From an uncultured SAR86 cluster bacterium (lineage in GTDB: Bacteria; Pseudomonadota; Gammaproteobacteria; Magnimaribacterales; D2472): a stretch of DNA of 64,000 bases. The stretch is from contig CACKPV010000001.1 in assembly GCA_902602185.1 (NCBI GenBank), positions 110,785 to 174,784 of the forward strand. The letters run 5' to 3'. Positions 5,978 through 12,575 of this stretch are shown here, one piece after another. The translations under genes and the position numbers were made by a program. How positions within the stretch are numbered: position 1 is the first letter of the stretch; each line of letters begins with the position of its first letter. The notes beneath the pieces are model-generated. The model did no database searches, was not told where the DNA came from, and was given only the letters and a program-made list of their open reading frames with translations.

Positions 5978-9172
<3,195 letters not shown>

Positions 9173-9174
9173 TC

Positions 9175-11358
9175 TTATTTAGCAGCAAATTCTACTGCTT
9201 GCTTCACATCAACTGAAACTACTCGAGACACTCCTGCCTCCTGCATTGTTACACCCATTAAAAAATCACTTTTTTCCATAGAAACCTTATTATGGGTAAT
9301 ACAAATAAATTGAATTTTTTGTGACATCTGGTCAACCATATTTATAAATCTTGATGTATTTAAATCATCAAGAGGTGCATCAACTTCATCAAGTAGACAA
9401 AAAGGTGCTGGATTTAATTCAAATAAAGCAAAAACTAATGCAAGTGCAGTCATAGCTTTTTCTCCACCAGATAATTGAGAAATTGAAGAATTCTTCTTAC
9501 CGGGAGGTTGAGCCATTAATTTAACACCGGCATGTAGATAATTGGATTCAGTTAAGAATAACTCTGCACGACCACCACCAAAAAGGATCGGAAACATTTC
9601 CTGTAATCTGGCATTAACTGCATTAAAGCTTTGAATAAATTTTTCTTTCGTTTCCTTATCAATTTTAGAAATAGCTTGATTTAACTTTTCTAGTGCATCT
9701 GTGAGATCATTATATTGAAGATCTAATTCTTCCTTTCTTTTGGTTTCTGCATCAATCTCATCAGGAGCAGCTAAGTTAATTGCTCCTAAACGAGAAATTT
9801 TTGCTCGAACTGAATCTAAATCAGCCTCCAATTGCTCAAATGTATATTCTGCATATTCGTTTTCGTGAACTTGATCAAGGCTTTGCCCCGAACCCTGAAT
9901 CTTATCAAATGCATTTTGCAGATGAACACTATGTGATCCTATTTCTATTTTTAATTCAGTTATTTTTTCATTGACGACCTTCACATCCAGCTCTGCTAGA
10001 GATTTTTGGTTTTCGAGTTGTGAGATCTCACTGTTTACTTTTGATTGTTCCTGACGAATTTGATTAAGTTGTGATTCAGAAATAGAGCTTTTCTGAATTA
10101 GTTCATTCAAACTTTTAGAAACCTCTTTTTCTAGACTTTGTTTTTTTTGTAACTCTCCTTGCAATATTGCTTCACGCTCTAAATATTCTTTACTCAAGTC
10201 TTTTGATTGCTCAATAACAATATTAAAAATACTTAAGAGAAGATCTTTTAGCTGAATGGCTTTATCTTTAATAAATTTCTGTGGGATATTTTCAATGAGA
10301 TCATCCATTAGGTGTAGTGCTTTTTCCTTTGGAGAAAGATTTTCAAAATCTAATGTTTTTGATAGTGACTCTTGGTAAGCTGACTGAGTCTGTTGCAATT
10401 CTGTTTGCAATTTTAAAATATCAGTTTTTAGACTTTGAAGATGCTGCTCATTTCGAGCAATCTCTGAACCAACCTCATAGAAATCTTTTTGAGCAGATTC
10501 GTACTGCGAAATAACCTCTTCATGTTCTGTTTTATACTGATCTAAACTAGATTGACCAGCTAAGACTCTCGATTCTTTAATAGAGAGGTCTTTTTGTAAC
10601 TCAGCCAATTGGGTATCTAATTTTTCTTTCTTTCTTTTTGCTTCAAGAGAAAATAATATAGCAATTTTTAATTCTAAATCTTTCTCTGTATGTTTGAGAT
10701 CATTATATTTTTTTGCTGCATTAGCTTGAGATTTTAATCTCCTAATAAGTCTGGTGATTTCCTCTCTGATATCATTAACCCTCCCCAAATTTTCTTTAGT
10801 TTTTTTAATTCTTCTTTCGGTTTCTTTTCGACGTTCTCGGTACTTAGAAACACCTGCTGCTTCTTCAATGTGTATTCTTAGTTCTTCGGGTTTTGCTGTA
10901 ACTAAGGATGAAACCATTCCTTGTTCGATAATGGCATAACTATTTGAACCAAGGCCAGTCCCTAAAAATATATCTTGAATGTCCTTACGGCGACATTTGA
11001 TTTGATTAATAAAATAAGCAGATTGACCATCTCTAGTCATTGATCTTTTAATTGCAATCTCCCCAAATTCGGCATATTCCCCACCGATTTTTCCTGAACT
11101 ATTATCAAATAACAACTCCACACTACATTGACCTGAAGGCTTTCTTTTATCAGATCCATTAAAAATCACATCAGACATTGAATCACCACGAAGTGTTTTA
11201 GCAGAAAGTTCTCCCAACACCCAACGCACAGCATCAATAATATTAGATTTCCCACAACCATTAGGACCAACAACAGCAACTAAATTTGTAGGGAACGATA
11301 TCCTCGTGGGATCCACGAAACTTTTGAAACCAGCTAATTTAATATGCTTAAGCTGCAT
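9175..11358 (-). CDS. smc: SMC ATPase with shortened arms and no recognisable hinge
   Basis: A chromosome-structuring SMC ATPase of 727 residues from the ATG at 11358 (a TTG lies one codon upstream). Family members are usually about 1150-1200. Both head halves are intact: Walker A GPNGCGKSN at about 32-40, then at the C-terminus the signature LSGGEK (about 630) and Walker B CLLDEVDAPLDD (about 655-666). The arms are cut to roughly 160 residues on one side and 200 on the other. The glycine-rich globular hinge that should sit between them is not visible; instead there is a short stretch of about 55 residues (about 337-392) rich in Leu, Ile and Lys. The frame is unbroken, so this is not an obvious pseudogene. 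ScpA/ScpB partners are not in the window. Confidence 0.9.
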   Translation of the reverse strand: MQLKHIKLAGFKSFVDPTRISFPTNLVAVVGPNGCGKSNIIDAVRWVLGELSAKTLRGDSMSDVIFNGSDKRKPSGQCSVELLFDNSSGKIGGEYAEFGEIAIKRSMTRDGQSAYFINQIKCRRKDIQDIFLGTGLGSNSYAIIEQGMVSSLVTAKPEELRIHIEEAAGVSKYRERRKETERRIKKTKENLGRVNDIREEITRLIRRLKSQANAAKKYNDLKHTEKDLELKIAILFSLEAKRKKEKLDTQLAELQKDLSIKESRVLAGQSSLDQYKTEHEEVISQYESAQKDFYEVGSEIARNEQHLQSLKTDILKLQTELQQTQSAYQESLSKTLDFENLSPKEKALHLMDDLIENIPQKFIKDKAIQLKDLLLSIFNIVIEQSKDLSKEYLEREAILQGELQKKQSLEKEVSKSLNELIQKSSISESQLNQIRQEQSKVNSEISQLENQKSLAELDVKVVNEKITELKIEIGSHSVHLQNAFDKIQGSGQSLDQVHENEYAEYTFEQLEADLDSVRAKISRLGAINLAAPDEIDAETKRKEELDLQYNDLTDALEKLNQAISKIDKETKEKFIQSFNAVNARLQEMFPILFGGGRAELFLTESNYLHAGVKLMAQPPGKKNSSISQLSGGEKAMTALALVFALFELNPAPFCLLDEVDAPLDDLNTSRFINMVDQMSQKIQFICITHNKVSMEKSDFLMGVTMQEAGVSRVVSVDVKQAVEFAAK
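10186..10353 (-). other. Non-coiled segment replacing the SMC hinge
   Basis: This codes for SMC residues of about 337-392, the only part between the two arm segments that does not read as a long Glu/Lys/Gln-rich coiled coil. It contains Pro twice (LSPKEK and ENIPQKF) and a hydrophobic run IQLKDLLLSIFNIVI. It could be a tight turn or a small dimerisation element. There is no CxxC, so it is not a Rad50-type zinc hook. The boundaries are approximate. Confidence 0.4.
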
Positions 11359-11391: not shown

Positions 11392-12216
11392 CTAATTAGT
11401 CTCAGGACTCGAGTCAGATGACTGTTTCCATTGATCTTTTGCAATGTTTATAACTTTATGTTTATTATCTTCAGCAAAAACAATGTCTGATTCTCCATAA
11501 GAATAAATCTCATTATTTTTACAAAATAGAACAGTTCCAACGGTAATAACATCTTGACTTATAAAAGCTGTTGTTAGATCGATACCTGGTGCCTCCGCAT
11601 CTTCATTTGTCAATACAATCTTCTCCACCGGGTTTTCTTCATAAAAAAGAGCAATGGTGATTGGATCATCGGGTTCATCATCTCTAAAAATATTTGCAGC
11701 AACTGCAACAGCAAAAATTTCACATAAGTCAAAATTATTTATATTTATAGAAATACTGGTATTCAAATATTCTGGATACTTTGCATTTCTTACTTTTTTT
11801 GCAACTGCTAACCAACGATAGCTTTGTTCAAGATTTATAAAATTTTCTAAGCTTCCATTTATCCATGACTCCGCAGCAGGAATATTTCCTTGCCTTAATG
11901 CCTCCTCAATAAAAAACTGATACCAATCCAATAATGCTGAGCTAGACTTAACCTTAGTTTCAAAAAATTCATCAATATTTTCCCAGTCATCAGATTCAAG
12001 ATTGCCTTTAGCAACTATTTTAGAATAATCATCCATCATCTTTGCAGTGGTGAAACTACCAATCAGTGAATATTTACTTATGAAAAGAAAAGTTGAACTA
12101 AAGATTAAGAGTATTACTATTAATAGAACACTGTGGCGATGACTATTTTGTTTATCTAGCAGATATAAAAAAAATATTATCGAAACAACAAATATAATAG
12201 ATAAGATTATTATCAT
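11392..12216 (-). CDS. ccmI: CcmI-like cytochrome c maturation protein
   Basis: 274 residues from the ATG at 12216, which overlaps the ccmH stop as ATGA; the longer frame from 12276 is not needed. Two N-terminal membrane segments are separated by a short basic loop. A small helical region follows (LLDWYQFFIEEALRQGNIPAAESWI) where CcmI proteins have TPR-like repeats that hold apocytochrome c. The C-terminal part (FAVAVAANIFRDDEPDDPIT and on) resembles the strand-rich C-terminal domain of CcmI. It is shorter and more divergent than typical. Identification depends strongly on its place after ccmH. Confidence 0.7.
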   Translation of the reverse strand: MIIILSIIFVVSIIFFLYLLDKQNSHRHSVLLIVILLIFSSTFLFISKYSLIGSFTTAKMMDDYSKIVAKGNLESDDWENIDEFFETKVKSSSALLDWYQFFIEEALRQGNIPAAESWINGSLENFINLEQSYRWLAVAKKVRNAKYPEYLNTSISININNFDLCEIFAVAVAANIFRDDEPDDPITIALFYEENPVEKIVLTNEDAEAPGIDLTTAFISQDVITVGTVLFCKNNEIYSYGESDIVFAEDNKHKVINIAKDQWKQSSDSSPETN

Positions 12217-12575
12217 CTTCTCACAAAATGAAAAATTGAAAGAAGAAAAATAATAAACACTAAAGGTGCCAACCAAAGGAATATGTTTTCAGAAAATTTT
12301 GGTTGGTAAACTGAATCCTTACCAAACCTTTCAACTACATAATTCCGAATGTCTTGATCAGTATAGCCATCTTCTAAAAGTTCAAAAATTTTTTTCTTTA
12401 AATCTTCTGAGACAGGAGCATTTGAACTTGCTAGGGAGCCACTAGTACATTTAGGACAACGAATCTCATCAATTAATTGGTAGTAACGTGTCTCTGTTTG
12501 AAGATCTTGAAAATCAAATAGTTCCTCAGCATTTAAACTGATTGAAAATATCATTAAACACAAAAAAATTTTCAT
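12213..12575 (-). CDS. ccmH: Cytochrome c maturation protein CcmH (CcmL type)
   Basis: 120 residues with an N-terminal signal segment, a redox motif RCPKC (Cys40, Cys43) and a C-terminal membrane anchor. CcmH keeps the haem-binding cysteines of apocytochrome c reduced for ligation in the periplasm. The context LIDEIRCPKC then SEDLKKKIFELLEDGYTDQDIRNYVVERFG is the standard family pattern. Only the N-terminal module of the E. coli fused protein is present, and the TPR module is supplied by the separate ccmI. It overlaps ccmG and ccmI by 4 bases each. Confidence 0.95.
   Translation of the reverse strand: MKIFLCLMIFSISLNAEELFDFQDLQTETRYYQLIDEIRCPKCTSGSLASSNAPVSEDLKKKIFELLEDGYTDQDIRNYVVERFGKDSVYQPKFSENIFLWLAPLVFIIFLLSIFHFVRR

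Follow-up and report, generated by a model that had tools for sequence, protein, structure and literature searches.

An Smc without a hinge across the SAR86 order, its arms joined by a short helical tip that probably dimerises

Analysis of a 64,000-nucleotide stretch of DNA from an uncultured SAR86 cluster bacterium (hereafter the window) revealed an smc gene whose 727-residue product retains complete ATPase heads and lacks the hinge. The hinge is regarded as an essential and near-universal part of SMC proteins, and models of how DNA enters, how the ring closes and how loops are extruded depend on it. The gene is the sole, orthologous smc of this SAR86 bacterium, and on balance we favor the view that it encodes a true Smc-ScpAB condensin in which the hinge has been exchanged for a helical tip that probably dimerises.

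The smc gene occupies 9175..11358 of the window on the minus strand, with an ATG at 11358, a stop codon at 9175-9177 and 727 codons without interruption, and its product scored 818.6 bits against the NCBIfam SMC_prok_B model (cut-off 567). The N-terminal half of the ATPase head (residues 1-165; 10864..11358, minus strand, as are all features of the protein) matches the Smc head structures 5xg3, 3zgx and 5h68 and shows a mean pairwise identity of 0.85 within the family of the window genome (f1); the C-terminal half, together with the head-proximal joint and neck, spans residues 521-727 (9178..9798), as indicated by conservation and by the Smc head structure matches. The sequence-only reading had described intact ATPase motifs in an open frame, and all were found: Walker A, GPNGCGKSN (residues 31-39; 11242..11268); the ABC signature, LSGGEK (residues 629-634; 9457..9474); and Walker B, CLLDEVDAPLDD (residues 654-665; 9364..9399). 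No other SMC match was present in the genome, a 1.09 Mb draft that is 82% complete.

Between the heads, AlphaFold2 models place an N-terminal arm helix (residues 171-339; 10342..10848), a helical tip (residues 339-392; 10183..10344, also delimited by conservation) and a C-terminal arm (residues 393-520; 9799..10182). Typical gammaproteobacterial Smc proteins match PF06470 (Pfam SMC_hinge) at approximately residues 524-620, and the SMC_prok_B lineage carries a hinge at its center; in the window protein the two arms are joined by only ~50 residues, all of them helical, and PF06470 gave no match. Nor did PF06470 match anywhere in the genomes of the SAR86 order (0/61). PF06470 alone is an insufficient guide, as it failed to detect the central region of at least one full-length SMC from a lineage other than Gammaproteobacteria and was also silent in a Caulobacter control genome, and we therefore judged hinge absence by length, structure model and a second profile built from gammaproteobacterial hinges, given the weakness of the Pfam model on diverged hinges. 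This gamma hinge profile detected a hinge within smc in all 15 hinged gammaproteobacterial genomes tested, the positive control, and in none of the 61 SAR86-order genomes. Since both searches were empty in all 61, SAR86 Smc lacks a hinge in cis, none could be detected in trans, and we reject a hinge encoded as a separate gene. Three full-length SMCs from outside Gammaproteobacteria (L150 in G239, L161 in G378 and L162 in G266) have a middle that looks globular, that of L150 being missed by PF06470.

A zinc hook as substitute for the hinge was also rejected, as CxxC was absent from the window protein and from 22 other hinge-less SMCs checked; the five cysteines of the window protein (residues 35, 78, 122, 654 and 686) all lie within the heads. 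The earlier description of an SMC with neither hinge nor CxxC hook thus holds, and the trait extends throughout the order. A short smc was found in 57 of the 61 SAR86-order genomes, one gene each, the remaining four lacking a match, and the carriers represent 18 genera, four families and several single-contig genomes. Intact proteins measure 727-736 aa (most of f1 and all of f4), 810-827 aa (f2 and f3) or 995-996 aa (part of f1), and the incomplete copies are split between contigs (G012) or cut by contig ends (G003 and G056). An earlier reading had missed that the SMCs of relatives occur at several lengths, all of them hinge-less.

The same survey bears on whether the window gene reflects an assembly deletion or is a pseudogene. 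Apart from the incompleteness of the host draft genome (82%), nothing was found in support of this reading, and the comparison with relatives that had been proposed as a check turned up no full-length smc, every intact copy among the 57 carriers being short. Single-cell genomes and MAGs of the SAR86 cluster are the nearest records, and species at 44-71% identity share the hinge-less architecture in independent assemblies, including single-contig ones (G010, G015, G038, G040, G042 and G045), with open frames and conserved motifs. The hinge-less smc of these relatives rules out an assembly deletion, and the probability left to any such artifact is negligible.

The window gene falls far short of the norm in Pseudomonadota. 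Among 133 genomes with a head match, every other clear smc encoded ~1130 aa or more, save one copy cut by a contig end. In wider samples, comprising 124 genomes class-wide (one per family) and 199 phylum-wide, intact smc genes again encoded ~1130 aa or more with few exceptions, namely the SAR86 order, a family designated f38, a hinged 1000-aa gene (G063) and fragments cut or split across contigs.

Family f38 is gammaproteobacterial, with genomes of 0.7-1.1 Mb and Smc proteins of 930-937 aa that have no hinge (loci L111 and L139-L143; genomes G094, G183, G186, G187, G189 and G192); the gamma hinge profile matched in 0/5 f38 genomes. Two other families of the same order, f127 and f128, have Smc proteins of ~1130-1176 aa, in which PF06470 matched 7/8 genomes and the gamma hinge profile 5/5 of those tested. 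In trees of the heads, from which actinobacterial rows were left out, SAR86 formed one clade (100/99) among gammaproteobacterial SMCs, and f38 grouped with the hinged f127 and f128 (98/90). The head tree and the genome-based taxonomy are the basis on which hinge loss in f38 appears independent of the loss in SAR86; with the heads alone, an AU test did not reject a single hinge-less clade (p 0.12-0.13).

Hinge loss in SAR86 is accompanied by changes in arm length. Both coiled-coil arms of the window protein are about half the usual length, the N-side arm comprising ~169 residues; the arm of wild-type Bacillus subtilis Smc has 344 residues, and prokaryotic Smc arms have modal lengths of 238, 341 and 515 and possibly, as a minor mode, 163 (PMC5344682). 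The 995-aa SAR86 proteins (L038 in G016, L039 in G019, L040 in G036, L041 in G028 and L044 in G014) are hinge-less too, with the N-terminal arm tandemly duplicated at an offset of 120 aa, the C-terminal arm at 143 aa and a single tip between the duplicated arms. The duplicates are identical at up to 37 of 60 positions, compared to 14-16 of 60 in shuffles, and because the extra ~270 aa are tandem arm copies, these forms are ruled out as hinge-bearing ancestors. Genera g8 and g9 each hold both 995-aa and ~730-aa forms, indicating that arm length was altered repeatedly, through gain, loss or transfer, in lineages that stayed hinge-less throughout. The duplication itself may have arisen once or several times; its identical offsets favor a single origin, and the sequence identities are ambiguous.

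What stands in place of the hinge is a small, predicted helical cap. The segment at residues 337-392 had been described as short and rich in Pro and Ile; it is indeed short, with a composition rich in Leu, Ile and Lys and only two Pro in 56 residues, and is a helical cap as opposed to a Pro-rich spacer. AlphaFold2 modeling of residues 261-470 gave an all-helical tip (mean pLDDT 91.5), in which the N-arm helix runs to residue 339 and is followed by a turn, a short helix (342-356), a loop and a continuous C-arm helix from 361. A full-length model, whose heads folded poorly, probably owing to an input of just seven close sequences, gave a nearly identical tip. Within f1, pairwise identity in the tip was 0.50 (0.60 in the first helix) compared to 0.34 in the adjoining distal arms, with the conserved pattern NLSPKEKA..LLD..I ... 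LK.LL..IL.IA..QSK. Around position 10285, the tip loop (residues 358-359) differs in length by up to five residues among f1 members, through an indel between conserved flanking helices.

The conserved hydrophobic residues of the f1 tip (341, 347, 348, 350, 351, 354, 355, 358, 363, 367, 370, 374, 377, 378, 380 and 381) span more than one helix face, and in the first tip helix (here 342-358) two sets, 347/351/354/358 and 348/350/355, lie on separate faces. Judged from sequence, this surface appears to exceed the needs of one hairpin, and one face may serve the intramolecular hairpin and another a partner. Searches of the tip against Pfam and PDB sequences returned designed helical repeats and chance matches only, with no known dimerisation domain, and a fold search with the arm-tip model returned nothing at E ≤ 0.001; the hits beyond that threshold were long coiled coils, including the B. 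subtilis Smc arms of 5nnv (Z 13.8, rmsd 2.6, 210 aligned), a score near the range of generic helical matches.

SAR86 has also kept the partners of Smc. ScpA was found in 55 and ScpB in 54 of the 61 SAR86-order genomes, and ParB in 39 of 41 SAR86 genomes; in the window genome, where a search for scpA and scpB had been proposed, both are present, side by side (G000:C1, 291.0-292.2 kb). That ScpA, ScpB and ParB are kept argues, at the level of gene content, that the protein still acts as the Smc-ScpAB condensin. In the mechanism that we propose, SAR86 Smc would most likely remain the ATPase of a ParB-loaded Smc-ScpA-ScpB condensin that has lost the hinge and approximately half the length of both arms, with a ~50-residue helical cap closing the hairpin. 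Two caps would meet through the second conserved hydrophobic face, holding the protomers together as the hinge did, and, as ScpA would bridge the heads, a shorter ring or rod would result. Tip-mediated dimerisation would be the simplest mechanism given the precedent of B. subtilis Smc, in which the apical fold is irrelevant but dimerisation there is required, its loss leaving the protein non-functional (PMC5344682). The 995-aa forms, which extend both arms and keep one tip, also favor the tip as an apical contact. The sequence-only reading had offered either dimerisation through another element or a head-only or monomeric ATPase; the conserved helical tip and the retention of ScpA, ScpB and ParB favor the first, and the second is not favored.

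Some features count against a dimer cap. The tip of f4 is conserved no better than its arms (0.26), an oddity if the interface were both shared and essential; tip sequences diverge strongly between SAR86 families; and the tip matches no known dimerisation domain. The tips of f2, f3, f4 and f38 are short and helical-looking without clear sequence likeness to each other. This lack of a clear common motif among the four SAR86 families and f38, together with the retained ScpA and ScpB, would fit a complex with no apical contact, in which ATP sandwiching and the ScpA/ScpB kleisin alone join the heads, and the arms are possibly zipped into a rod; small chromosomes would then have no need of a hinge. 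We regard this as rather unlikely, given that the f1 tip is preferentially conserved with surplus hydrophobic surface and that B. subtilis Smc loses function when hinge dimerisation is abolished (PMC5344682). That a working condensin without any apical dimer interface arose by convergent loss in several streamlined ocean lineages is similarly doubtful; if it were true, a closed SMC hinge would be unnecessary for chromosome folding by Smc-ScpAB.

Less likely still, the tip could bind a membrane protein, a topoisomerase or some other, unknown factor acting as a bridge, with the bound protein taking the role of the hinge. A tip that is both conserved and hydrophobic requires a partner of some kind, and the hinge of Escherichia coli MukB interacts with topoisomerase IV (PMC4255302), but no obvious additional gene lies beside smc, which sits in an ordinary ccm-smc-zipA-ligA order, and no hinge-domain protein is encoded elsewhere in the genome. 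Downstream, zipA (8585..9172, minus strand; PF04354, 1.1e-13) starts two bases after the smc stop codon and is followed by ligA, encoding the NAD-dependent DNA ligase (6558..8588, minus strand; NCBIfam match and synteny). Loci of the same genus and G016 share the smc-zipA-ligA order, and for the other three SAR86 families examined ligA is found a short way downstream of smc. The ZipA protein is short (195 aa), Pfam recognising its C-terminal domain and the NCBIfam ZipA model giving 23.7 against a cut-off of 119.65. On the other side, between a CcmH/NrfF-like gene and smc, an ORF at 11392-12276 (minus strand) has no NCBIfam match, is 26-28% identical to the ORF of relatives at the equivalent place and is perhaps a diverged CcmI.

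A different relationship is suggested by RecN, whose coiled-coil tip mediates self-contact and which is not known to have accessory proteins. RecN is likewise a short-armed SMC-like ATPase (PMC4255302), and the short arms and missing hinge of the SAR86 protein could mark it as a RecN- or Rad50-like repair ATPase that has abandoned the condensin role. This seems very improbable: the window protein scored 44.5 bits against RecN (cut-off 407.85), a weak match beside its SMC_prok_B score, it has no zinc hook, no second SMC match occurs in the genome, and ScpA, ScpB and ParB are kept. Rad50/SbcC and MukB also resemble SMC proteins in architecture and have another element at the apex, whereas the SAR86 protein has no CxxC and has ScpA and ScpB as partners, and no MukB model was among the best 25 NCBIfam matches of the window protein.

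Our preferred reading of a hinge-exchanged condensin has a close likeness in canonical Smc-ScpAB (TIGR02168; the B. subtilis and Pseudomonas type), which shares head sequence and motifs, neck, joint, the ScpA/ScpB/ParB partners and the smc-zipA-ligA neighborhood; the SAR86 form differs in having no hinge, arms of about half length and a ~50-aa helical tip. An engineered parallel is B. subtilis Smc(Zh), which has the zinc hook of Pyrococcus furiosus Rad50 for a hinge and grows normally on rich medium; in it, too, an unrelated element caps Smc arms and heads, though that element is a zinc hook and the arms are longer (PMC5344682). In nature, hinge-less SMCs of a marine actinobacterial clade were described in a 2025 ocean-gene survey by Sussfeld et al. 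and likewise combine heads and a coiled-coil hairpin without hinge or zinc hook in abundant ocean bacteria, differing in belonging to Actinobacteria, not Gammaproteobacteria (PMC12153180). The actinobacterial and SAR86 losses are most likely separate. The literature searched yielded no paper about SAR86 SMC, and what is new here is the hinge-less SMC of SAR86, its retained ScpA, ScpB and ParB, the conserved tip, the duplicated arms and family f38.

In sum, SAR86 SMC is an smc orthologue by descent without a feature normally taken as defining, and either another element, probably the helical cap, performs the job of the hinge or that job is not needed. An entire order of ocean bacteria, abundant and with small genomes, and apparently a second gammaproteobacterial family too, lives without the hinge, SAR86 having kept kleisin, ScpB and ParB despite its loss and having varied arm length by duplication of whole segments. 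These natural short, simple condensins could serve to test the need for apical contact, arm length and DNA binding by the hinge in loop extrusion.
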